DNA of 64,000 nt from Crocinitomicaceae bacterium (GTDB taxonomy: Bacteria > Bacteroidota > Bacteroidia > Flavobacteriales_D > Crocinitomicaceae). Shown here piece by piece: positions 426-42,245 of this stretch; within the stretch, counting starts at the first letter, position 1; the number at the start of each line of letters is the position of its first letter. The position numbers and the translations under genes are program-made. Below the pieces are notes generated by a model. That model did no database searches. It saw only the letters and a list, made by a program, of their open reading frames with translations, and was not told the DNA's origin. The stretch is from the NCBI GenBank assembly GCA_029254025.1, contig JAQWYK010000034.1:1-64000 (forward strand), in the 5' to 3' direction.

Positions 426-2843
426 TTACGCTGCTTTCTGTTTGTATAAATGTTGTTGAAATTCTATAAACAGTCTGCTGATGTTTGCAACGTCACCCAA
501 AATTTCTTTCGCATCTTCTAACGATTGATATTTGTTTGTCAGCAAGATTGGTAGTTTCTCTTGGTCAAGTTCTTCTACACCTGTTTCAATGTATTTGCTC
601 AACACAAATTCAATAAACTCTTTTTGCTTGTTGTCAAGTAAGGCAAAAATTGTCGCTTGTGCTGCTGCAACTCTTGCTTCTCTTGTCATTGGTTTGGTGT
701 CGCTGTTAAACACATATTCCAACACATCAAACAAGTCGCTTTTTTCTGCGTCAATTAGTTTTTGTAAAGTGGTTAGTTCTTCTTTACCGAAACCTGCTTC
801 GTCCAGTTTTTCTAATAGTGTTCGTCTTGTGATTGGATTGCTCCAAAGTGTCCGCAATTCATCTTCGCTTTTGAAAAGGTTTGGCAATTCACCAAACAGA
901 TTATTCAAAAATTCTTCTGCTGAAATAGGTCTGCCGTCTGCACTCCAAAATGAAGTTGAAATCATTGATTGAATTTCACGTTCCTTGCCGTCTTTCAACT
1001 TCACTTTTATTTTTTGTCGCTTGTTGCAGTCGCAATTCATTTCACCACAAATTTCGCAAGGCTCTTTCGGTTTCTTTTCACAAACGCAAGGCGTCTGATT
1101 GCAAACTTTACAAGGCTTTGGTGGTGGCGTTTCGCAAACACAAGGAATTTGTCCGCATTTGGAGCAAGGGTCTTCTTCTTGTGGTTCTCCGTCCCATTCA
1201 GGGTCGGCAAAATGGTGATAAGCATCTACATAATCATAAATGGTAAAAAACTCTTTGCCATCAAACAACCGTGTTCCTCGTCCTACAATTTGTTTAAACT
1301 CTATCATTGAGTTTACTGGTCGCATTAAAACAATGTTGCGGATATTTCTTGCATCAACTCCTGTTGAGAGTTTTTGCGAAGTAGTTAAAATGGTCGGGAT
1401 TGTTTTTTCGTTTTCTTGAAACTCTCTTAAAAACTGTTCGCCAATTTCGCCATCGTTTGCAGTAACACGAACACAATAATTTGGGTCGGTGCTTTTTTTG
1501 TATTGGTTTACTAAATCTCTAACCAATGCAGCGTGTGGCTGATTGGCACAAAATATAATTGCCTTTTCTTTTTGGTTGGCTTCGTCTAAATAGATGTTTA
1601 CCCGCTTTGCTTCTCTTGCAACAATTTCAATGGTGCGGTTAAAATCTTTTTCTTCATAATTTTTGCCTTCTTCAATTTCGCCCTCAATTATTTGGTCATC
1701 GCTGGTGTAGATATAATCGTCAAGCGTTGTCTTGATGCGTTTTACTTTGAATGGCGTTAGGAAACCGTCATTGATACCTTCTTTCAAAGAATAGATGTAA
1801 ACAGGTTCGCCAAAATATTTGTAAGTATCTACATTGTCTTTGCGTTTGGGTGTGGCGGTTAAACCCAACTGAACGGCTGGCGAAAAATATTCTAAAATGC
1901 CTCTCCAGTTTCCTTCATCGTTTGCTCCGCCTCGGTGGCACTCGTCAATAATTATAAAGTCAAAATAGTCGGCTGGATATTGTCCAAAGTTTGGTTTCGG
2001 ATTTCCTTCTTTGTCTCTGCCACTCATAAACGATTGAAAAATGGTAAAAAAAATGCTTCCGTTTGTTGGCACTTTTCCATCTTTCTTTACTTCGCTTGGT
2101 TTAATTCTTACCAAAGCATCATCGGCAAAGGCAGAAAAAGCATTGAAGGCTTGGTCGGCTAAAATGTTTCTGTCTGCTAAAAATAAAATGCGTGGTCTGC
2201 GGCTTCCGTCTCGTTTTAAGTTCCAACGGGTTTGAAATAGTTTCCACGCTATTTGAAATGCAATAGCGGTTTTTCCTGTTCCTGTGGCAAGGGTTAATAA
2301 AATGCGTTGCTGATTGTTGGCAATGGCTTCAATGGTATTGCGAACTGCTATTTCCTGATAATAGCGAAGTTGCCAAGTGCCGCTTTTATCTTCATACGGA
2401 ACGGCTGCAAACTTCTCACGCCACTCATTTTCAATTGTCAATTGTCCATTGTCAATTGGATACGTTTTATTCCAAAGTTCTTCGGGTGTTAAATAATCTG
2501 CAACCAAACCTTCGGCACCTGTTTTCATACAGATGCTGTAAATCTCTTTTCCGTTGGTGCTGTAAGTAGTTTCTAATTTTAGTTTTTCTGCATATTGTTT
2601 GGCTTGTGCCACTCCTTCACCTACGCCCAAATCATCGCTTTTGGCTTCTACTACTGCAAGCTTAATTCCTTTGTAAACCAACACATAATCGGCAGTAAGT
2701 TTTTTTGCTCTTATTCCTCCTGTTTGTATTTTACCTGCGGTAATGTTGTATTCACGAAGGATTTTAGAACCCTCTACAACGCCCCAACCACAAGCTTTTA
2801 ACTTCGGGTCTATGAGTTCTGCTCTTGTTTCTGCTTCGTTCAT
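426..2843 (-). CDS. hsdR: Type I restriction enzyme, R subunit (HsdR)
   Basis: Motor and nuclease subunit of a type I restriction-modification complex: it translocates DNA with ATP and cuts unmodified DNA. Of 805 residues, the N-terminus holds a PD-(D/E)xK nuclease (D52, then E66-A-K68). The SF2 helicase core has Walker A ATGTGKT (186-192), DECH (300-303), LTATP (328-332) and motif VI QIVGRGTR (518-525). Between helicase and C-terminal domain, residues 560-606 hold three successive CxxCxxxxCxC motifs (12 cysteines), a probable zinc-binding insert that not all HsdR proteins have. It is the last gene of the hsdM-hsdS-hsdR operon; its ATG overlaps the hsdS stop by 4 bases. Length and motifs fit an intact EcoEI-like (type IB) R subunit. 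Confidence 0.93.
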   Translation of the reverse strand: MNEAETRAELIDPKLKACGWGVVEGSKILREYNITAGKIQTGGIRAKKLTADYVLVYKGIKLAVVEAKSDDLGVGEGVAQAKQYAEKLKLETTYSTNGKEIYSICMKTGAEGLVADYLTPEELWNKTYPIDNGQLTIENEWREKFAAVPYEDKSGTWQLRYYQEIAVRNTIEAIANNQQRILLTLATGTGKTAIAFQIAWKLFQTRWNLKRDGSRRPRILFLADRNILADQAFNAFSAFADDALVRIKPSEVKKDGKVPTNGSIFFTIFQSFMSGRDKEGNPKPNFGQYPADYFDFIIIDECHRGGANDEGNWRGILEYFSPAVQLGLTATPKRKDNVDTYKYFGEPVYIYSLKEGINDGFLTPFKVKRIKTTLDDYIYTSDDQIIEGEIEEGKNYEEKDFNRTIEIVAREAKRVNIYLDEANQKEKAIIFCANQPHAALVRDLVNQYKKSTDPNYCVRVTANDGEIGEQFLREFQENEKTIPTILTTSQKLSTGVDARNIRNIVLMRPVNSMIEFKQIVGRGTRLFDGKEFFTIYDYVDAYHHFADPEWDGEPQEEDPCSKCGQIPCVCETPPPKPCKVCNQTPCVCEKKPKEPCEICGEMNCDCNKRQKIKVKLKDGKEREIQSMISTSFWSADGRPISAEEFLNNLFGELPNLFKSEDELRTLWSNPITRRTLLEKLDEAGFGKEELTTLQKLIDAEKSDLFDVLEYVFNSDTKPMTREARVAAAQATIFALLDNKQKEFIEFVLSKYIETGVEELDQEKLPILLTNKYQSLEDAKEILGDVANISRLFIEFQQHLYKQKAA

Positions 2844-4003
2844 ACTACTACTGCTGTTGTTTTTAATTCTCCTGAAAACGCTTTTTGCAAAACGGATTTT
2901 TTGAGTTCTTCTAAGTCGCTTATTTTCTTTTGATAGATGGCTTCCAATTTTTGAGTTTCAATTCTCAATTCATCAATTCTGTCAATAATTTGCATCTGTT
3001 TCTTCACTGGTATAAATGGAATTTCAGCATCAGTAATTGCACCAATACCTACATTACCTTGACCAACTGTGCCAGTTTCATTAGCAAAATATTGGTCTTT
3101 GAAAATATTAGTCCAAGAAAAATAAAGGAAGAACTTAGGCAGATATTTATCTGAAAAACGTATTGATGCAATTCGTTGATTAAGCAAATAGTTTTCTTTT
3201 TCAATTATTACGGTGAAACCGTAATCTCTTTTCTTTTTTGTTCCTGTTTGAGTTATGATAACATCGTTTAATTGAAGAAGTGCTTTTGTTAGTGCCTTTT
3301 CATCAAGTTTATCAATAAAAACTGGACTTTCATTTTCTCTTATTACTCCTGGTCGAACATTGCCCATTCTAATAACTTGATATTTTCCTTTTGTAGTGAA
3401 GTCTGTGCTTTTAAATGAATAACCGCCAATAACTTTAGCTACATCTGAAATGATTTTCTTTTCGCTTGTATCAAATAGTTTAGTAAACAAATCGTCTAAG
3501 TAACTTTCAAAAAGTTCTTTGGCGTTTTGTAGGTTTTGTTGGGCATTGGTTTTTGCTTTGGCTATGGCGGCAAAGGCTTCGTCTAAGATTGATACTATGC
3601 GTTGTTGCTCGGGAAGTGAGGGAAGTGGGATTTCAATATCTTTGAAATCATTTTTTTGTAAGTGTTTTATTGTAGCACCTTTAAAATGTTTTTTTCCTAT
3701 TAGGTCTTCATTAAGTAATAGGAAAAAGAACAAATACTTAATGTCCGAATTATATTTTGTTCTAATTGACCATGTATCTGTTGAATAAGAAGCAGCACCA
3801 TCGTAAAAGTGAACATAAAAATTTCCTCCTGTTGGCAAGAAAATATTTCTACCATCAATTATACTTTGATTAATAGTTTTTATATTCTTACCACTGATAA
3901 AAAATGGAAATTCACCTCCTTCATTTCCTTTAGATTTGGTAGTGGATTTTTTATTTTCCACAATCACTTCCCCCAATTTTTTTATTTCCCAACCTTGTTT
4001 CAT
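2840..4003 (-). CDS. hsdS: Type I restriction enzyme, specificity subunit (HsdS)
   Basis: DNA-recognition subunit that determines the bipartite target of the HsdM/HsdR complex. The 387 residues show the expected order: first target-recognition domain (about 1-125), a conserved helical spacer starting PLPSLPEQQRIVSILDEA (about 127-175), a second recognition domain (about 185-320), and a second helical spacer with a matching IPVKKQMQIIDRIDEL segment and the terminal LKKSVLQKAFSGEL motif. Both spacers are present, so the gene looks full length. Start and stop each overlap a neighbour by 4 bases, implying translational coupling. I saw no second partial hsdS or inverted copy that would suggest phase-variable shuffling. 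Confidence 0.92.
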   Translation of the reverse strand: MKQGWEIKKLGEVIVENKKSTTKSKGNEGGEFPFFISGKNIKTINQSIIDGRNIFLPTGGNFYVHFYDGAASYSTDTWSIRTKYNSDIKYLFFFLLLNEDLIGKKHFKGATIKHLQKNDFKDIEIPLPSLPEQQRIVSILDEAFAAIAKAKTNAQQNLQNAKELFESYLDDLFTKLFDTSEKKIISDVAKVIGGYSFKSTDFTTKGKYQVIRMGNVRPGVIRENESPVFIDKLDEKALTKALLQLNDVIITQTGTKKKRDYGFTVIIEKENYLLNQRIASIRFSDKYLPKFFLYFSWTNIFKDQYFANETGTVGQGNVGIGAITDAEIPFIPVKKQMQIIDRIDELRIETQKLEAIYQKKISDLEELKKSVLQKAFSGELKTTAVVV

Positions 4004-5454
4004 ATCAGTTCCAAAATTGAGTTTAAAATATCGGCACTTTCTTCATCCAAGGCTTTCATTTCTTCTAAAATTTGTTGCGGTTGGCGTAAAGCGGCTTCTT
4101 CTTTTTTGTTGGGGTTTTTGGCACTTAGGTCAAAAGTGTTTTGGTCAATGTCTTTTACATTAATTGTCCAAGAGTTTTCGCTTTCGCCTTTTGTTTTTTG
4201 CAAGGCAACAAAATCTGCCAAATCGTTTTCGTTTAGTGGGTTTGTTTTGCCAAGGTTTCGGGCTAAATTCAGTTGGTAAAACCAAACCTTTTTGGTGCTG
4301 CTGCCTTTTTCAAAAAACAATACCACCGTTTTTACTCCTGCACCTGTAAAGGTTCCGCCTGGCAAATCTAACACGGTATGCAGGTTGCAATTTTCAAGAA
4401 TTAGTTTTCGTAAACTCACAGAAGCATTGTCGGTATTGCTCAAAAATGTATTTTTAATAACCACACCTGCTTTGCCACCTGCTTTCATAATCTTAATAAA
4501 ATGCTGCATAAACAAGGAGGCCGTTTCGCCCGTTTTTATTGGGAAGTTTTGCTGCACTTCGGCTCTTTCTTTTCCTCCAAATGGTGGGTTAGCCAATACA
4601 ATATCGTAGCGGTCTTTTTCTTGTATGTCGGCAAGGTTTTCGGCAAGTGTGTTTGTATGCACAATGTTTGGTGCTTCCACTCCGTGTAAAATCATATTCA
4701 TTGTGCCAATTATGTAAGCCAATGATTTTTTTTCTTTTCCGTAAAAGGTTTTTTTCTGTAAGGTTTCTACATCTTTGGTCGTAAGGTTTTTTGTGCTTCT
4801 TAAATAGTCGTAAGCCTCTACCAAGAAACCCGCTGAACCTACTGCACCGTCATAAATTTTATTTCCTATTTCGGGTGCTACCACTTTTACAATGGTTCTA
4901 ATCAATGGTCGTGGTGTGTAATATTCTCCACCGTTACGCCCAGCGTTGCCCATATTTTTAATCTTGTCCTCATAGAGGTGGCTCATTTCGTGCTTTTCAG
5001 CGTGGGTTCTAAAACGCAATTCGTCAATGCGGTTTATTACTTCACGCAAATTATAGCCGCTTTGTATTCGGTTTTTTAGTTCGCTAAAAATCTCCCCAAT
5101 TTTATATTCAATGGTGTCGGCACTTTCGGCATCGGCTTTAAACTTTTTGAGGTAGGGAAATAGTTTAATATTTACAAAGTCGGAAAGGTCGTCACCTGTC
5201 AACGCTTTGTGGTGGTCAAGTTTTCCTTCTTTGTCTTTGGGTGCAGCCCACTTGCTCCATTGGTATTCTTTGTCAATAATGTTCGTGTAAGACTTGCCAG
5301 TTAGTTCGGCTGCTGTGGCTTTGTCCTTTTCTAAGTCGTCCAAATATTTGAGGAACAAAACCCAAGAAGTCTGCTCTACATAATCTAATTCACTTCCGCA
5401 ACCTGCGTCTTTGTGCAGTATGTCGTCTATATTTTTAAAGGTTTGTTCAAACAT
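4000..5454 (-). CDS. hsdM: Type I restriction-modification N6-adenine methyltransferase (HsdM)
   Basis: Modification subunit; with HsdS it methylates adenine in the target using S-adenosylmethionine. Of 484 residues, about 1-140 form the N-terminal helical HsdM domain. EYYTPRPLI (177-185) precedes the SAM-binding motif I, here DGAVGSAGF (202-210) in place of the commoner DPACGTGGF; the catalytic motif IV NPPFGG lies at 289-294. It is the first gene of the operon. The ATG at 5454 follows a short A/T-rich leader beside the right-hand hairpin repeat. The motif I variant keeps the acidic residue and glycines, so activity is likely. Confidence 0.93.
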   Translation of the reverse strand: MFEQTFKNIDDILHKDAGCGSELDYVEQTSWVLFLKYLDDLEKDKATAAELTGKSYTNIIDKEYQWSKWAAPKDKEGKLDHHKALTGDDLSDFVNIKLFPYLKKFKADAESADTIEYKIGEIFSELKNRIQSGYNLREVINRIDELRFRTHAEKHEMSHLYEDKIKNMGNAGRNGGEYYTPRPLIRTIVKVVAPEIGNKIYDGAVGSAGFLVEAYDYLRSTKNLTTKDVETLQKKTFYGKEKKSLAYIIGTMNMILHGVEAPNIVHTNTLAENLADIQEKDRYDIVLANPPFGGKERAEVQQNFPIKTGETASLFMQHFIKIMKAGGKAGVVIKNTFLSNTDNASVSLRKLILENCNLHTVLDLPGGTFTGAGVKTVVLFFEKGSSTKKVWFYQLNLARNLGKTNPLNENDLADFVALQKTKGESENSWTINVKDIDQNTFDLSAKNPNKKEEAALRQPQQILEEMKALDEESADILNSILELI

Positions 5455-5841: not shown

Positions 5842-8382
5842 CTAAAAACTTCGCAACACCTTGTGGGTTGGATAGCGTTCTTCCTGCATCCATTGCTTCA
5901 ACTGATCCAGCGATACATTCTTGACCTCAATCACTTTGGATGCTCCTGGCAAGAGGTCGAAATAGTTATCGGAAAAATCGCCTTTCAGCAGTTCTAAATA
6001 AATGTCTTTCGCTAAATGTCCGTTATTGCTGATGAGCAATACGCCTGGCGATTGCCATTGCAGGGTGAGAGAGGGTTCTTCCAACTTCATTTCCTTTGGT
6101 GGTACAAAGTAGTGGAGCGTTTCGGCCAGGTCTTTTTCGTTATTGCGCAAGGTAACCCGAAGCAGACTCTTCTGTTTTTTTCTGCGTCCGCCAGAGATCC
6201 ATCTCCTTGGTAAAACATCCAGGATAGTCGATGAATTCGGCGAGAGCTGAACAAGGAAATGTCGGGTTTTTAAGACTGCACCTTCAAAGTCTACCCAATC
6301 AATTACGAGATAGTTCACTTCATGCGAATCACCCTCATTTACTAAATGTATAGCGTAACTATCGTTTTGTTCCTCCACCGTCAACATTAAAGGCTCAAAC
6401 GCTCGTTTCACCACATAATGACTGGCTTTGGGCACACCAAAGTAATCAACACTTGACCAAGATACTACTGGCCAACAATCGTTGAACTGCCAATACAAGG
6501 AACCCATACAATAAGGCTGTCGCGTGCGCTGTGCTTCAATAGCGATTTGCATGCCACGTGCTTGCACCAATTGTGAGACATAGGCATAATCGTCGAGGTT
6601 CTTCGGGACAGGGTAATCGCGCGCCATGTATTCATCAATGGTTTCGAAACCTACGGGGTGCTTTTGGTGATTTTTCCATTCAGCGGAAGTAAGGTCGTTG
6701 TTTCCTGCTCCGACAAACTCCTCAAAATGAAGTGGACTCGGAAAACTTTGGAAGCCAAACTCCGACGCAAAGCGCCCTACTTTCTCGCGGTAGCGTTCAA
6801 ACGGTTCTTTCCCCCACCAAACTCCCCAATAGTGCTGGTCGCCAGAAACGTAGCTCTCTGCTCTCCCCCATCCGTAGGTAGGTGAAGAAGGATGATACGA
6901 GCGACTCGGGTCTTCTCGTTGCAGAACAGCCGGAATCAAATCATGAAACAAGCGTTGATAGTCGGCATAAATCTTTAGCGAATCTTCTTTGGAATAGTTG
7001 TGCTGCTTTTGCCAGCCCCAATTGTGCCAGGCTTCATCTACTTCGTTATTACCGCACCACAATACGATACTGGGATGATTTCGGAGTCGCCGCACTTGCT
7101 CTTCCACCTCATAACGCACCGTTGACAAAAACGAACTGTCCCCGGGATACAAGGCACACGCAAACATAAAGTCTTGCCAGACCATTATGCCTTTTTCGTC
7201 GCAGAGGTCGTAGAAATAATCGTCTTCATACACCCCACCTCCCCAAACGCGCAACATGTTGAAATTGGCATCCAATGCCCGATCGATGAGTTGCTCGTAC
7301 CCTTCTTTTTTTACCCGAGGTAAGAAAACGTCCAACGGAATCATGTTGGCTCCTTTGGCATAGACCGGCGTATCATTCAGGGAAAAGTAAAAGGATGTGC
7401 CCAACGAATCTGGCGCTTGCACGAGTTCGGCCGTTCTTAAGCCTATCAGTTCTGTGCGCTGATCAATCAATTGATTGTCTTGATAAAGTGCGAAGTCTAT
7501 CGTGTATAAATTTGGATTTCCATAACCATTGCAATTCCAGCGCTTGGGATTTTCTATTTCTACGTCGAACGAAAAATCATTCGGATAACCACCTAACTCA
7601 GTATTCTTCGACTGACCTGTTTCATGCACAAACGCATGCATCATGTATTTTCCTGGCTCCAACAGGTCAATAGTAAAATTCGCTTGAATAACTGCTTTAT
7701 CCTTGGAAAGTTCTTGTTGTTTCAGTTGAATGTTGTCAATTTTCCCAACATCGTAATACTCAATATACACTGGTTTCCAAATCCCTACCGTGGGAAAACG
7801 CGGACCCCAGTCCCAACCAAAATGATATTGTGCTTTACGTGCAAAATTAGCTTCTCCACTGGGAAGAAAGTACGGAAGTTCTTTGGCTTTTTCCGCCACA
7901 ACGTGCTTCGCCGGATGAAAAACGACTTTCACATGATTATCTCCCGGATGGAGTTTTCCATTTAACGAAACAGTCCAGCTCCGGAACATGTTATCCGTCC
8001 TTCTTACGCGCTTATTATTGACATAAATATCGGCATACGTATCGAGTCCCTCAAAAATCAAATTGATGCGTTTGGAGTTCATCACCTCCTTGGGCAAATC
8101 GATGGTCGTTTCGTATACCCACGTCTGGTCTTCTATCCAAGTTAACTGGTGTTCGTTGTTTCCAAAAAACGGGTCAGGTATGCGGTCGTTGCGATAAAGA
8201 TCGGTATGAATCGTTCCTGGGATATCCGCTGGCAGCGTATCTATATCCGAATTATTCAGCGCATAAACACGCCAATTAGTTGATAGCGGGAGTTGTATAT
8301 GCATTTTCTTGGCATCCATTAGTTGACCCAAAGAAGGCGTCCATCCTAATAAAATCATCCCTATGACAACAATCCACTTCAT
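5842..8382 (-). CDS. Beta-mannosidase, glycoside hydrolase family 2
   Basis: Hydrolyses terminal beta-mannosyl residues, such as the Man-beta-1,4-GlcNAc bond of the N-glycan core. The 846 residues start with a signal peptide (cleavage after about SLGQ, residue 20), followed by the GH2 sugar-binding domain (LTWIEDQTWVYET, about 80-92), an immunoglobulin-like domain and the TIM barrel. The acid/base glutamate is E447 in WCGNNE and the nucleophile E541 in ASEFGFQSFP. Length matches beta-mannosidases rather than the longer beta-galactosidases. It is the last gene of the GH20-glycosylasparaginase-CutC-GH2 operon and overlaps cutC by 4 bases. No membrane anchor is visible, so a periplasmic location is likely. 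Confidence 0.9.
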   Translation of the reverse strand: MKWIVVIGMILLGWTPSLGQLMDAKKMHIQLPLSTNWRVYALNNSDIDTLPADIPGTIHTDLYRNDRIPDPFFGNNEHQLTWIEDQTWVYETTIDLPKEVMNSKRINLIFEGLDTYADIYVNNKRVRRTDNMFRSWTVSLNGKLHPGDNHVKVVFHPAKHVVAEKAKELPYFLPSGEANFARKAQYHFGWDWGPRFPTVGIWKPVYIEYYDVGKIDNIQLKQQELSKDKAVIQANFTIDLLEPGKYMMHAFVHETGQSKNTELGGYPNDFSFDVEIENPKRWNCNGYGNPNLYTIDFALYQDNQLIDQRTELIGLRTAELVQAPDSLGTSFYFSLNDTPVYAKGANMIPLDVFLPRVKKEGYEQLIDRALDANFNMLRVWGGGVYEDDYFYDLCDEKGIMVWQDFMFACALYPGDSSFLSTVRYEVEEQVRRLRNHPSIVLWCGNNEVDEAWHNWGWQKQHNYSKEDSLKIYADYQRLFHDLIPAVLQREDPSRSYHPSSPTYGWGRAESYVSGDQHYWGVWWGKEPFERYREKVGRFASEFGFQSFPSPLHFEEFVGAGNNDLTSAEWKNHQKHPVGFETIDEYMARDYPVPKNLDDYAYVSQLVQARGMQIAIEAQRTRQPYCMGSLYWQFNDCWPVVSWSSVDYFGVPKASHYVVKRAFEPLMLTVEEQNDSYAIHLVNEGDSHEVNYLVIDWVDFEGAVLKTRHFLVQLSPNSSTILDVLPRRWISGGRRKKQKSLLRVTLRNNEKDLAETLHYFVPPKEMKLEEPSLTLQWQSPGVLLISNNGHLAKDIYLELLKGDFSDNYFDLLPGASKVIEVKNVSLDQLKQWMQEERYPTHKVLRSF

Positions 8383-9092
8383 GTATTCAATAGCTCTAAG
8401 ATACGCTTTATTTCCTGTTCATCTGCTTCTCCACCAACTTGGGTAATGCACGCTGAATGATAGAAATTAGCGCTTAAAGCAGAGTTCAGTCTAGCTATAT
8501 TCTCCGAACGAACACCGCCGCCCACAATAATGGTTAAACGATTTCCTGCTTGTTGGTGGAGTGATTTCAGTCTTTCTGTTCCTTCCAATGCACTTTTCTT
8601 TGCACCTGACGTGAGAATGGCGGAGCAACCTAATTCAACGACTTGATCCAAGGCGATGGCATAATCCTCTACCTCATCAAAGGCACGGTGAAATGTTACT
8701 GGTTTTCCTTGAGCCGCTTTGAGTAATCGCTTGTTGGCAGTAATATCAATTTGGCGATCGGGAGTTAAGCATCCAATTACAAACCCGTCGGCACCATGAT
8801 CAAAGAACAACTGAATATCTTTTTCCATTTGCGTCAATTCCAATTCGGAATGACAAAAATCTCCTCCACGTGGACGCACCAACACATAAACAGGGATTTC
8901 AGTTGTTTTCCGCAGTGCGACAAAGTCCTCCAATTTAGGAGTGACTCCTCCGAGCGCATAATTCTCTGTAAACTCAATGCGATCGGCACCAGCACGAACG
9001 GCTGTCAACGCAGATTCCAGGGTAAAGCAAGCGATTTCTAATCTTGTTCTTGGATTCGTCGGTTCGGGGTTCGAGGTTTGCCGTTCATTCAT
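8379..9092 (-). CDS. cutC: CutC family protein
   Basis: A 237-residue TIM-barrel protein of the CutC family. Recognisable segments are LEIACFTLESALTAVRAGADRIEF near the N-terminus (shown by LTAVRAGADRIEF), YALGGVTP, VYVLVRPRGGDF, GADGFVIGCL and TIIVGGGVRSENI. The family was named for a copper-tolerance phenotype in E. coli, but a copper role is doubtful. Here it is sandwiched between glycosylasparaginase and beta-mannosidase in a glycan-degradation operon, which argues for a sugar-related or housekeeping role (inference). No signal peptide is visible, so it is probably cytoplasmic, unlike its neighbours. Residues 1-17 (rich in N, P, T) are atypical and the true start could be the L-E-I-A region if a non-ATG codon is used. 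Confidence 0.88.
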   Translation of the reverse strand: MNERQTSNPEPTNPRTRLEIACFTLESALTAVRAGADRIEFTENYALGGVTPKLEDFVALRKTTEIPVYVLVRPRGGDFCHSELELTQMEKDIQLFFDHGADGFVIGCLTPDRQIDITANKRLLKAAQGKPVTFHRAFDEVEDYAIALDQVVELGCSAILTSGAKKSALEGTERLKSLHQQAGNRLTIIVGGGVRSENIARLNSALSANFYHSACITQVGGEADEQEIKRILELLNT

Positions 9093-37159: not shown

Positions 37160-39013
37160 CTACTTTAGAACAGGAAATACTATCCTACTTGTACCAAATA
37201 CTCTATGTTCGGCAGGCTCAAAATTTTCGAGTTCCGCATCAAAGGTGTTTTCAATATATTTTTGCGGGTTCAACTCAAACAATGGAAACATAGAACTTTG
37301 AATTTGAATCATGATTCGATGTCCAGGTAAGAATGTGTGTCTCACCTCCAGCAAAGGTACTTCCACTTCGGTTTTCTTATTCTTCTTAAAAGGCTTGGGA
37401 GCATCAAATCCTTCACGATAACGGCCTCGAATATAGCCCTGTCTGACTAATTTTTGATAACCATTCATTTTTAAACTGGGAGCATCAGTTGGCAATGACT
37501 TCCTATCCATAGGAAGAATATCGATAATTTTAATATAGATATCCGCATCTCCATGATCCGTAGAGAAATCGATAAACGCCTGAATAAGTCCACTAATATC
37601 AACAGTATCCTTCAAAATTGGACTTACGAAAGAAAGAACGTCAGGACGCTTAGAAACAAAACGCTGGTCATCATTCATATAGTGTTTGGGAGCCATCCTG
37701 TAGAAATCATCCTCTTGAATAAATGGTACGGGAGTATTCGGGTCAGAAACAAATGACCGATAACCTTTACTCGGAGTGTCTGATAACACAGCGGTTTCTG
37801 TCAAATACAATGTTATACTATCGCTCGCTTGAGTGAAGCCATTATCCGCATAAGTCTCCCATTGGTGCGTTCCCATGTTAAATACTTTAGCACTGAAATC
37901 TGGTGCTTCACCCTTGTTTTTAAGGTACTTCTCAAAGTAAGGAAACTCAATATCACGTTGAAAATCTTCTGAAATACTATCTCCGTAATAAATATTCCCG
38001 AGACGATACTGTCCATCACGTCGTTTGTTGTGGCCATGAGACCAAGGACCAATAACTAGTTGAGGAGTTAAATCTGGTTTTTTTTTCATCAATTCGCGAT
38101 AGGAATTGAGTATTCCATACAAATTCTGTTCATCATTCCATCCCCCTACGATCATCACCTTACACTTGGCACTGTCTAAATATTGAATCCAACCTCGTTG
38201 CTGTCTAAACTCGTCATAATCTCGATGTTCGCGCAACTCTTTCCAAAAGAAATTCTCCGGGTGAAGTATATCTTCCATGCTTTTAATATTCTTCCGTTTC
38301 AAGAAAAAATCGTAATAATCATCATATAACTCTTTTTCCTTATCTATAAGATATGGTGTTCGGTAGGTAATTGAACGCCAGTCATTGAAGGGACCTGATC
38401 TCGGGTGACCAAACATATCGATGACGGGAAAGTAGTTCAGCGCAAAAATGCCATACCGGCTAAAATCCTCAAAATAAAAGTCCGTTACAGGCGCCATAGG
38501 CATAACAGCCTTCAGAGCTGGATGTCCTGTTGTACTTGCCAGCAAGGCCGTAAATCCAAGATAGGAATTTCCATATTGACCAATATTTCCGTTAAACCCT
38601 TCTAAATTATCTACTAACCATTGATAGGTATCCCAGGAATCAGTCACCTCATCCGTTTTAGTGGTATCCCAAAATGAATACGGCGGCTTTGTATTTTCAA
38701 AATCTCCTTCGCTCATGAATCGTCCACGCATATCTTGGAATACGAAGATATACCCAGAAGAAATTAAGTCCGGATTATGGCTAACAGCCTTCATTAATTG
38801 ATCACCGTATGGTGCAATGCTGTAAGGAGTTCGTTTTATAATTACAGGAAGATCCTCGGTTGCACCAACCGGACGATAGATAGAAGTGAATAAACGCACT
38901 CCGTCACGCATAGTAATATACAACTCTTCTTTCTCATAATCCGCATTCGTAAAAGCCTGAGCACGGACGCCCGGCGCCATCAGTACAAGCGCTATTATCA
39001 CTATTATTTTCAT
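37160..39013 (-). CDS. CocE/NonD family (X-Pro dipeptidyl-peptidase-like) hydrolase
   Basis: Secreted alpha/beta-hydrolase of the S15/CocE type that cleaves esters or X-Pro dipeptides. Start taken at 39013 (MKIIVIIALVLMAPGVRA, a signal peptide), which overlaps the WD40 stop by 4 bases; a longer frame would begin at 39040. Nucleophile serine in GQYGNSYLGF (about 152-161), histidine in GPWSHGHNK, and the C-terminal jelly-roll domain (about 410 onwards). The family has few substrate clues. It is the last gene of the TPR-ComA-WD40-hydrolase operon. Confidence 0.85.
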   Translation of the reverse strand: MKIIVIIALVLMAPGVRAQAFTNADYEKEELYITMRDGVRLFTSIYRPVGATEDLPVIIKRTPYSIAPYGDQLMKAVSHNPDLISSGYIFVFQDMRGRFMSEGDFENTKPPYSFWDTTKTDEVTDSWDTYQWLVDNLEGFNGNIGQYGNSYLGFTALLASTTGHPALKAVMPMAPVTDFYFEDFSRYGIFALNYFPVIDMFGHPRSGPFNDWRSITYRTPYLIDKEKELYDDYYDFFLKRKNIKSMEDILHPENFFWKELREHRDYDEFRQQRGWIQYLDSAKCKVMIVGGWNDEQNLYGILNSYRELMKKKPDLTPQLVIGPWSHGHNKRRDGQYRLGNIYYGDSISEDFQRDIEFPYFEKYLKNKGEAPDFSAKVFNMGTHQWETYADNGFTQASDSITLYLTETAVLSDTPSKGYRSFVSDPNTPVPFIQEDDFYRMAPKHYMNDDQRFVSKRPDVLSFVSPILKDTVDISGLIQAFIDFSTDHGDADIYIKIIDILPMDRKSLPTDAPSLKMNGYQKLVRQGYIRGRYREGFDAPKPFKKNKKTEVEVPLLEVRHTFLPGHRIMIQIQSSMFPLFELNPQKYIENTFDAELENFEPAEHRVFGTSRIVFPVLK

Positions 39014-39915
39014 CCTTGTTCTTTTTCGTTTATTTCCCAAACAATTAGTTGTCTATCATCTCCAACAGAGACAAACCTACTCTCATTTAATTTAGCCAAT
39101 CGATTCACCACGTGGGAGTGTCCTCCATCTCTTTTTTCCAACCGCTTCAGCACCGTTAGTGTATCAGCACTCCATAGTTTAATTGTTTTATCAAAACTTG
39201 CTGAAACCAGAATTTGGCCATCTTGAAGTAAAAGAAAGTCATAAACCGCAAAATTATGAGCAGGTACACTTTTTAGGAGTAATTCGGATTTCCAGTCCCA
39301 CAGTCTAATGTGCGCATCTTTAGCCCCAGAATACAATTGGTCACCACTGAATATCGCGCAATTCGCACCATCTTTGTGACCTCTTAATGTTGCGACTTCA
39401 TTAAAAAACCGTGTTTCTAAAATACGGACATTTCCATCTTGACAACTTAGTGCTACATGTGAACCATCCTCATTGACTGAAATTGTTCTGATCTTACCAC
39501 AATTGAATGGAAGTGTTAATTTTAAATCAAATGTATCTCCGTTCCAAACACAAAAGTATCCATCAGCATCACCTGAGTAAAACTCATTGTTTTCAGCGCA
39601 ATATGTTATTGAAAAAACGGCCGATTGATGTTGTGACAATAAGCGAACTTCTTGTTTTAGAGATAAATCTATAACATGAATGCCACCACGTGAATTACCC
39701 ACAGCGAGAAGATTTTTAGCAGAATTTAGCGCTATTCGGTAACCGGAAAAGTCAAGTTTGGCAGCAAATTTATCTTGAACTCCTTCATTGAGTTTCCATT
39801 TCACGACGTACTTATCAGCCGCAGTCGTAAAGCAAGAATTCTCATCTGTTAAAACAACATCGTAAATAGACCCAGCGTGTCCAGAAATTGATTTAATTGC
39901 AGATACGTTCAGCAT
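39010..39915 (-). CDS. WD40 repeat protein
   Basis: A 301-residue cytoplasmic protein without signal peptide made of seven WD40-like repeats (SGHAGSIYDVVLTDEN, SQHQSAVFSITYCAEN, RGHKDGANCAIFSG, SFDKTIKLWS, DDRQLIVWEI). It probably forms one beta-propeller used for protein interaction. It overlaps ComA by one base and the hydrolase by four. It has no catalytic motif. Confidence 0.85.
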   Translation of the reverse strand: MLNVSAIKSISGHAGSIYDVVLTDENSCFTTAADKYVVKWKLNEGVQDKFAAKLDFSGYRIALNSAKNLLAVGNSRGGIHVIDLSLKQEVRLLSQHQSAVFSITYCAENNEFYSGDADGYFCVWNGDTFDLKLTLPFNCGKIRTISVNEDGSHVALSCQDGNVRILETRFFNEVATLRGHKDGANCAIFSGDQLYSGAKDAHIRLWDWKSELLLKSVPAHNFAVYDFLLLQDGQILVSASFDKTIKLWSADTLTVLKRLEKRDGGHSHVVNRLAKLNESRFVSVGDDRQLIVWEINEKEQG

Positions 39916-40739
39916 TATTCATCCTCATCTTGAACTTGCTTCAGACGCTCTTCATAATCCGCAGGCAAATTTTCAAAGAATGTATCCCCTCGCAGTCCAA
40001 GTCGCAAACATTCCAATGGAATCATTTCATTGGGTGCAATATTTCCTAGGTTTACGTTGGCACCAAACAACTTAATAAACCATACTTGCTGGTTTTTTTG
40101 AGGGGCCTCCCAGAGGATATCCTCTGGTTTTACTTTCGCAATAATCTTATTGATAAGGTATGTATGCGCCGTTCCATTTGGTCGGAAGACCCCAACATTT
40201 CCACTTTCTCTGCCCTCCGCGATTACTTTCCACGAACCAGCTTCCAACTCCGTACTCATCATTTTAATCCATTTTGCAGGAGAAATGATAATTCCAGAAT
40301 CCTTCGATCCTACTTCCGAAAGGACTGTTCTGTCTTTCGCCATGCGGGCAATTAACTCACACTTTTCATCATGGGGAATAATTACAGATCCGTCAGAAAT
40401 CTCGGCTAAATCCATGTTGTACTTATCCAACAGCCTCAAGTAGTCTTCGAACATTCCGCGTGCATAAAACGCCTCAAATAAAGTACCTCCAAAGTATGGA
40501 CGAATATCGTTTTCACGATACAGCTTCAATTTGGCTTCCAGATCCTTTGAGACGAATGCTGTTCCAAAACCAAACTTGGCAACATCTGTAAGGTGGCCTG
40601 ATGCCTCTATAAAGTTCTCTACTTCACGCAGGCTAAGCCCTTTGTCCATCATCATAGTGAGTCCACTGTTACGTGGCTTCGCAGTTCTCTCTGGAATAAA
40701 TGGTAGTTCGAAATTCCTCATGGTCCTATTCTTCTTCAA
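39915..40739 (-). CDS. comA: Phosphosulfolactate synthase (ComA family)
   Basis: Adds sulfite to phosphoenolpyruvate to give phosphosulfolactate, the first step to coenzyme M in archaea and a likely route to sulfonates in bacteria. A 274-residue TIM barrel with GLTMMMDKGLS (about 26-36), AKFGFGTAFVS (about 54-64), IRPYFGGTLFEAFY (about 77-90) and the C-terminal RLGLRGDTFF. The ATG at 40739 overlaps the TPR gene; an ATG at 40721 (MRNFELPF) may be preferred since it begins the conserved part. Located between TPR and WD40 genes. Confidence 0.9.
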   Translation of the reverse strand: MKKNRTMRNFELPFIPERTAKPRNSGLTMMMDKGLSLREVENFIEASGHLTDVAKFGFGTAFVSKDLEAKLKLYRENDIRPYFGGTLFEAFYARGMFEDYLRLLDKYNMDLAEISDGSVIIPHDEKCELIARMAKDRTVLSEVGSKDSGIIISPAKWIKMMSTELEAGSWKVIAEGRESGNVGVFRPNGTAHTYLINKIIAKVKPEDILWEAPQKNQQVWFIKLFGANVNLGNIAPNEMIPLECLRLGLRGDTFFENLPADYEERLKQVQDEDE

Positions 40740-42132
40740 TGCGTGACGTAAATTCGTCGTATTCTTTTAAGTCTTCAAAGTGCAAAAATAAACTTTTTGC
40801 AAGACTCAAACTAGTAATCATCAATTCATCTAACAACTCCAATGCTTCTGTCCGCTTATTCATAGTCCAAAACTCGTTAACCAAAAATAAATTTGTCGCG
40901 TCACTTTTGTTAATAATTTCATTCTGTTCAATCACCTCAAACAGTTCTTCGTTAAATTCTTTACTGAAAAATGATAAGTAGTCGATGATCAAGTCATCAT
41001 CGCTAGCATTGGCTAATAATTCAATCGCTCTTTCATAAGCTATGCGAGCTTCACTAGTTTCGCCATGCTTTTCCAAAATACCTGCTAAGACATGATGGTA
41101 ACCATATATTGTATTATCCAAATCAATAGCCATTCGGACTGCACTCAAGGCACTTGGGTAGTCTCCCATTGCCTCAAAAACAACACCTTTCCCTAACCAA
41201 GCATCTGAAAAGCTCGGCATCAGCACCAAACACTTTTCGTAATAATGAATGGCCTCGTCGCAGCGCTCCAGCTCTTCATAACATTCTCCAAGAGAGCAAA
41301 ATGTAAGTGCATCATCTCCATCAATACCGATGCATTTTTGATAAAATTCAATCGCTTTATTATACTCTTCAAGTTCAACATACGTATTCGCTGTATTGTA
41401 ATACGCAGGAACAAAATCATCGTTAATTACTATACAGTAATCGTAAGCCTGAAGCGCTTTGTCAAATTTTTTCAGTTTAACGTAGGCATTGCCTAAATTA
41501 TACCATGCTGTGTATGAATAAGGGTCTTCATCTAGAAACTTTAAAAAACAATCGATGGACTTTTCATAATCCTTTACTTGATCGTAACAATAGGCTAATT
41601 CGTAAACTATCGATTCATTCAGAGGCTGCTCTGACATAGCTTTTTCCAAAATTTTGACAGCACTCACATAATCCTTAGAACTCTCAAACTCCATGGCAAT
41701 ATCGATGTAAATATCGGCACGCTCCTCTTCCTCCGCTAAGTCTAGTGCCTTTGTAAAATACTTTATTGCAGACTCACTGTCTCTTAGTTGACTAAAGCTT
41801 GAGGCCAATGTAAGGTAAAGATCCAAACTTGGAGTATCCATTTTTTCCAAATGACTCAGCATCTTTAAGGACTCCTTGATGTCCCCCATCAAAGACATTG
41901 CTTGGGCCTGACGAAGATAAAATAAGTTATTAAAAGGAAAATGTTCACGTGCCATCTCTGCAGCCCATTTTGCCTTTTTAAATTGATTAGTCACCAATAA
42001 ATGGTCGATTAATGCTTCAATCCTATCCGCATCAAAATACCCGTAGTCATTCTTTTCATACATTGTATTGAAGAGAACCAAGTCATCATTGACATCACCA
42101 CCATATATTTCCTCGTCTTCGTCATCGAACAT
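40726..42132 (-). CDS. TPR repeat protein
   Basis: Cytoplasmic helical protein of about 468 residues built from at least ten tetratricopeptide repeats (AWYNLGNAYVKLKKFDKALQ, AYYNTANTYVELEEYNKAIE, and so on). The start is taken at 42132 (MFDDEDEEIYGGD), since the upstream 19 residues in the same frame look non-coding and the -7 box TAAATTTG lies only 5 bases before it. It is the first gene of a four-gene operon. TPRs mediate protein contacts; partner unknown. Acidic N-terminus. Confidence 0.88.
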   Translation of the reverse strand: MFDDEDEEIYGGDVNDDLVLFNTMYEKNDYGYFDADRIEALIDHLLVTNQFKKAKWAAEMAREHFPFNNLFYLRQAQAMSLMGDIKESLKMLSHLEKMDTPSLDLYLTLASSFSQLRDSESAIKYFTKALDLAEEEERADIYIDIAMEFESSKDYVSAVKILEKAMSEQPLNESIVYELAYCYDQVKDYEKSIDCFLKFLDEDPYSYTAWYNLGNAYVKLKKFDKALQAYDYCIVINDDFVPAYYNTANTYVELEEYNKAIEFYQKCIGIDGDDALTFCSLGECYEELERCDEAIHYYEKCLVLMPSFSDAWLGKGVVFEAMGDYPSALSAVRMAIDLDNTIYGYHHVLAGILEKHGETSEARIAYERAIELLANASDDDLIIDYLSFFSKEFNEELFEVIEQNEIINKSDATNLFLVNEFWTMNKRTEALELLDELMITSLSLAKSLFLHFEDLKEYDEFTSRIEEE

Positions 42133-42213: not shown

Positions 42214-42245
42214 CAAAAAAAGGAGGTCGTTTGACCTCCTTTTTT
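42214..42245 (-). terminator. Terminator of the subtilisin-like protease gene
   Basis: Eight-base stem AGGAGGTC/GACCTCCT with a four-base loop, flanked by A and T runs, so it can work in both directions. Confidence 0.8.

Follow-up and report, generated by a model that had tools for sequence, protein, structure and literature searches.

A ComA-family gene with a conserved TPR partner in a Crocinitomicaceae genome, and its possible part in sulfonolipid supply

We analysed a stretch of 64,000 nucleotides from a Crocinitomicaceae bacterium (assembly GCA_029254025.1, contig JAQWYK010000034.1, positions 1 to 64,000; henceforth the window), focusing on ComA, a gene of the phosphosulfolactate synthase family, and on what its genomic context across Bacteroidota suggests about its role. 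ComA (39915..40721, minus strand; ATG at 40721, in a frame that is open from a TTG at 40739) is the second of four consecutive minus-strand genes. The first encodes a tetratricopeptide repeat (TPR) protein of 468 amino acids (40726..42132; PF00515, 147.7 bits), the third a WD40 beta-propeller protein of 301 amino acids (39010..39915; PF00400, 104.7 bits against a cut-off of 27) and the fourth a CocE/NonD family hydrolase (37160..39013; TIGR00976, 209.5 bits against a cut-off of 66.3, and PF02129, 185 bits, with a query sequence that started one codon upstream of the ATG), at whose N-terminus a signal-peptide-like segment is recognisable by eye. Read from the sequence, four bases lie between the TPR stop codon and the ComA ATG, ComA and the WD40 gene meet in a common TAATG, and the WD40 and CocE genes meet in a common ATGA. 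A palindrome with a T-run (~42215..42245, minus strand), terminator-like by eye and absent from the pattern-scan list, stands between the four genes and an upstream subtilase-like gene, and the gene downstream of CocE is convergent. The tight unit described in the original prediction was thus borne out: the four genes share the minus strand, Pfam and NCBIfam agree on their names, and the junctions are overlapping or 4-base ones.

The ComA protein covers positions 1-243 of the 243-position PF02679 profile (291.8 bits; curated cut-off 25.2) and aligns along its length with two solved structures, PDB 1u83 from Bacillus subtilis (170.7 bits, the nearest one) and 1qwg from Methanocaldococcus jannaschii (157.4 bits); the blocks GGTLFE, EISDGS, EGRESG, EAPQK.QQ and LRLGLRGDTF are conserved in this comparison. 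It does not reach the cut-off of 280 for TIGR03849, the archaeal ComA equivalog (242.2 bits), and two other Bacteroidota ComA proteins score 252.0 and 268.2 bits on that model. Judged by these matches, it is a member of the ComA family and not the archaeal equivalog. Plant HSA32 is a ComA homologue whose chemistry is not established, and one could propose that the window protein is likewise a ComA-fold paralogue with another activity. The TIGR03849 shortfall (242 against 280) and the existence of more distant ComA-like paralogues in the phylum would fit such a proposal; we nevertheless regard it as very unlikely, given the full-length matches to the B. subtilis and M. jannaschii structures, the conserved motifs and the co-occurrence with ComB (see below).

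Among named records, those of Fluviicola, Brumimicrobium and Lishizhenia hold the nearest relatives of this ComA, which points to a Crocinitomicaceae-like organism within Bacteroidota. One complete chromosome, recorded as Glaciecola amylolytica (L145, CP034120.1), has a ComA that shares 81% identity with the window's, with TPR and WD40 neighbours alongside; because both the identity and the neighbours are those of the window's lineage, the name of that record looks doubtful. We also came across a divergent paralogue, 22-23% identical to the window's ComA, that adjoins an MmgE/PrpD-family protein at L069:7768-9988 and in L075 (~6540-8786), the call resting on Pfam in L069 and on similarity of the protein start in L075. 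This pair may stand for a sulfonate route of its own, with phosphate or water being eliminated by the second enzyme. Another ComA-like gene (L076:6343-9990, genome G200; 126.8 bits) is flanked by GNAT-fold and ATP-grasp-like proteins and clusters with further genes that have no assignment.

To see which neighbours accompany ComA elsewhere, we examined adjacency in 120 other ComA loci. A TPR gene lies directly upstream in 75 of the 76 named loci whose upstream flank reaches 1.5 kb or more, in 23 of 28 loci from the class, in 6/6 from the family or order and in 6/6 others. Directly downstream, the WD40 gene is present at 70 of 74 named loci, which are without exception close relatives by ComA identity, and at 1 of 28 class loci, while CocE was found within 3.5 kb downstream in 0 of the 120 loci, its adjacency being confined to the window's genome. 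These counts mark TPR-ComA as an old pair, WD40 as a lineage addition and CocE as incidental; ComA and the TPR protein are conserved partners. We therefore rejected both WD40 (restricted to close relatives) and CocE as parts of the system, and the original prediction's picture of the four genes as one functional module is not supported. Other genes found downstream of ComA elsewhere encode an undecaprenyl-phosphate-translocase-like protein and a shikimate dehydrogenase N domain, the latter looking like ordinary housekeeping.

The original prediction had seen no ComB or ComC in the window. This holds for the window, and for the ComC family it extends to the genome, as PF02615 had no match at E 0.001 in the source assembly (2.70 Mb, 99.9% complete; 4 of 14 control genomes do match). 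ComB, by contrast, is present in the genome as a single gene (G000:C6:63430-64056; PF04029, 255.6 bits; PDB 1vr0, 147.7 bits). Across 295 genomes of the class (Bacteroidia), ComA and ComB occur together in 232, ComA alone in 12, ComB alone in 9 and neither in 42. In 16 of 20 ComB loci (L247-L261 and L263), ComB adjoins or lies near a gene of one cluster (gcvT in L259), a neighbour not seen in the own-family loci L244-L246.

ComA and ComB are the first two enzymes of coenzyme M biosynthesis in some methanogens, as described in passages of PMC5695019, and the two enzyme families and the proposed first product, phosphosulfolactate, are the same here. It is nonetheless hardly credible that the present genes serve coenzyme M: ComC's family is absent, and we know of no use of coenzyme M in aerobic Bacteroidota of this kind. 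In contrast to the methanogen system, ComA sits in a TPR operon separate from ComB, with cysteate for a lipid as the proposed end product.

The genome further encodes an acyltransferase of the CFAT/SulA type (L168, G000:C27:14350-15612), which scores 601 bits to the solved SulA of the Alistipes finegoldii pathway (PDB 7u7h) and 581 bits to 28eh, versus 232 bits to serine palmitoyltransferase. SulA condenses cysteate with acyl-acyl carrier protein (acyl-ACP) to 3-ketocapnine, and Lys281, which replaces an Ala, may serve to tell it from serine palmitoyltransferase (passages of PMC9304779). L168 has Lys at the aligned position, its residue 283. Among 59 loci compared there (one without a match, some genomes in twice), Lys occupies the position in 43/43 with matches of at least 368 bits, and Ala in 15/15 with matches of 192-228 bits. 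The same CFAT (CapB/SulA) family with its diagnostic lysine belongs to the CapA-CapB-CapC, or Cys-CFAT-KCR, pathway of Capnocytophaga and Chryseobacterium. With ComB and CFAT/SulA, the genome thus holds the further sulfonate pathway genes whose lack the original prediction had counted against itself.

In some genomes CFAT forms the C-terminal part of proteins of ~1100 amino acids (L241:9570-12896 in G219 and L240:2145-5576 in G254), where it follows an AMP-binding ligase and a phosphopantetheine (ACP-like) domain; such a fusion would bring its own acyl-ACP supply. Similarly, at G179:C1:441586-442788 CFAT lies at the C-terminal end of a 1171-codon frame. In several families (L225, L227, L264-L266, L269) CFAT stands beside a conserved string of lipoprotein, small-protein and CoaBC-like genes, for which the names BamD, RpoZ and CoaBC were read from the N-termini by eye.

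From these genes, their distribution and their motifs, which we observed directly, we infer a set of reactions in the organism and the production of sulfonolipids. ComA would join phosphoenolpyruvate (PEP) and sulfite into phosphosulfolactate, from which ComB would remove the phosphate to give sulfolactate. A putative dehydrogenase outside ComC's family would then oxidise sulfolactate to sulfopyruvate, a general transaminase (e.g., aspartate aminotransferase) would convert this into cysteate, and CFAT would combine cysteate with acyl-ACP to yield 3-ketocapnine, the sulfonolipid backbone. We favour, with moderate confidence, the reading that ComA and ComB supply cysteate to CFAT and so stand in for the CapA or archaeal-type cysteate synthase of known producers.

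We next considered how these genes are distributed in the 295 class genomes, calling CFAT at E <=1e-95 and CapA-type proteins at E <=1e-150. ComA was found in 244 genomes, ComB in 241, CFAT in 258 and CapA-type proteins in 11 (8 above the curated cut-off, the other 3 at 508-548 bits). ComA and CFAT occur together in 233 genomes, ComA without CFAT in 11, CFAT without ComA in 25 and neither in 26 (Fisher 6e-15); in the 253 genomes with a completeness of 90% or more and no more than 5% contamination, the corresponding counts are 205, 4, 21 and 23. CapA-type genomes make up 11 of the 21 CFAT-only genomes in this stricter set: all 11 have CFAT and none has ComA, so that no genome of the 295 holds both ComA and CapA, and 244 of the 258 CFAT genomes have one or the other. 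By family, 56 have both ComA and CFAT, 6 have CFAT alone, 2 have ComA alone and at least 5, among the matches listed, have neither (p 0.0007). Both genes are absent from G002 (family f3) and G422 (f87) though other members of those families carry both, and both are absent from families f61, f11 and f91. The link from ComA to sulfonolipid supply, raised in the original prediction, is supported to this extent: ComB and CFAT are in the genome, and ComA is found alongside CFAT and never alongside CapA.

Outside the class we sampled 80 genomes of the phylum. These were 24 of the 47 that have ComA, 43 of the 85 that have ComB alone and 13 of the 112 that have neither. The 24 include a sub-cut-off match of 19 bits (G019), a 127-bit paralogue (G200) and at least one genome (G050) whose ComA is a paralogue of 26% identity; family f23 was represented by 12 of its 35 ComA genomes. 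CFAT scores were bimodal in this set, with 15 genomes at 377-488 bits and the rest at ~232 bits or less, or absent from the matches listed. ComA is present in 14 of these 15 CFAT genomes. Put the other way, CFAT was found in 14/24 ComA genomes vs 1/56 others (by family 3/5 vs 1/31, p 0.005), and a single family accounts for 12 of the 14 genomes with both genes. The ComA genomes in which CFAT is missing comprise five from family f13 and three from f35, together with G200 and G019. A distinctive kind of sulfonolipid occurs in Salinibacter ruber (passages of PMC2596770), and to equate f13 with that group would be no more than a guess.

We also compared gene positions. ComA and CFAT lie on one contig in 12 of 81 genomes with both positions among the matches listed. 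They are closest in G357 (5.7 kb), G524 (6.4 kb) and G373 (8.0 kb), which represent two families, followed by G402 (17 kb), G346 (31 kb) and G550 (34 kb); four of these six genomes with ComA and CFAT within 34 kb fall in families f77 and f58. The positional linkage is weak and suggestive only.

Co-occurrence of this sort can also be explained in another way. In Bacillus subtilis spores, YitD and YitC make sulfolactate as an end product, and 1u83, the nearest solved homologue of the window's ComA, belongs to that system. ComA and ComB might likewise yield sulfolactate as a solute or excreted product, with CFAT drawing cysteate from elsewhere (e.g., cysteine oxidation) and shared ancestry accounting for the common distribution. 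The absence of ComC's family is compatible with this explanation, as are the association of ComB with ComA, which stands on its own, and the presence of ComA without CFAT in 4 high-quality class genomes and in families f13 and f35. Unlike in the YitD/YitC case, CFAT co-occurs here. Against the explanation, ComA and CFAT are jointly absent in G002, G422 and families f61, f11 and f91, and all CapA-type genomes are without ComA. Hence we consider sulfolactate as the end product unlikely, though it is the strongest of the alternatives to cysteate supply through ComA and ComB.

Cysteate supply through ComA and ComB also has to be set against the cysteate sources described in Bacteroidota, i.e., CapA, and the archaeal-type cysteate synthase of Alistipes and Odoribacter (passages of PMC10191378). 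The source genome has five PF00291 genes, which NCBIfam names as threonine ammonia-lyase, a cystathionine beta-synthase (CBS)-like protein (L158), a hydroxyaspartate-dehydratase-like protein, tryptophan synthase beta and an ACC-deaminase-like protein. The archaeal-type synthase was not among the best 25 families listed per protein for these five genes. In contrast to the Capnocytophaga and Chryseobacterium pathway, there is no recognisable CapA: no protein of the genome matched NF053679 (cut-off 600) at E 1e-150, the best candidate being L158 (G000:C31:16543-17427) with 468 bits.

L158 was kept as a rival source of low weight, since its catalytic domain shares 50-54% identity with that of six CapA proteins; it also scores 408 bits to the CapA-like PDB 9k2p vs 360 to the CBS of Mycobacterium tuberculosis. 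On this alternative L158 would form cysteate from O-phosphoserine and sulfite, and ComA would serve something else. However, L158 scores somewhat higher on the CBS model than on the CapA model (488 vs 468 bits), whereas a real CapA scores 394 and 663 bits, respectively. It has a C-terminal extension that CapA lacks, and its motifs read EGTSGNTG and GNSAG as opposed to ETTSGNTG and GYTSG in CapA. Since no second cysteine synthase turned up among the five PF00291 genes, L158 is probably needed for cysteine. A role for L158 as cysteate synthase would, moreover, leave the distribution of ComA unexplained, and we regard it as quite improbable.

Several observations weigh against the ComA-ComB route to cysteate. 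The step from sulfolactate to sulfopyruvate has no assigned gene, PF02615 being absent from the genome, and ComA, ComB and CFAT are not in one operon in the source genome. Of 296 phylum genomes, 86 have ComB and no ComA, so that ComB must have other roles. The p-values given above are uncorrected for phylogeny and inflated by relatedness, the family-level tables serving as a substitute. The 8 genomes with CapA above the cut-off all belong to one family, so the exclusion between CapA and ComA possibly reflects one evolutionary switch. Exceptions occur in both directions: ComA is found without CFAT in 11 class genomes (4 of high quality), and outside the class families f13 and f35 carry ComA and no SulA-type CFAT, while CFAT is found without ComA in G254 outside the class and with neither ComA nor CapA in 14 class genomes (10 of high quality). 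Among these exceptions, G261 and G538, which are near-complete and belong to a genus otherwise positive for ComA, keep ComB and CFAT and have neither ComA nor CapA, making them useful places to seek a further cysteate source. An archaeal-type cysteate synthase could account for some of the counter-cases.

Elsewhere in the window, three successive minus-strand genes (426-5454) resemble a type I restriction-modification system by eye.

Among 5.39 million openly licensed papers we found none in which capnine or such sulfonolipids are linked to sulfolactate or phosphosulfolactate, and none joining cysteate, ComA and Bacteroidetes; a search for sulfonolipid and sulfolactate yielded sulfoquinovosyl lipids only. 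The enzyme families are known, and it is their combination that is new. A parallel is found in methanogens, which reach sulfopyruvate either via ComABC or via cysteate synthase and aspartate transaminase (passages of PMC5695019 and PMC12068725), a swap that by analogy may be taken as a precedent for one between ComA and CapA. CapA is present in 8 to 11 of the 258 sampled CFAT genomes, compared with 233 for ComA. We therefore see about an even chance for a broader proposal, in which most sulfonolipid-capable Bacteroidota would make cysteate from PEP and sulfite through ComA and ComB, CapA would be a minority replacement that mirrors the methanogen swap, and the TPR protein would be a partner dedicated to ComA. 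In some Bacteroidota, sulfonolipids rank among the major lipids of the outer membrane, and they have been linked to gliding, to the development of choanoflagellates and to inflammation in the host (passages of PMC9304779). If the proposal is true, a widespread lipid pathway would begin with a gene annotated as coenzyme M biosynthesis.

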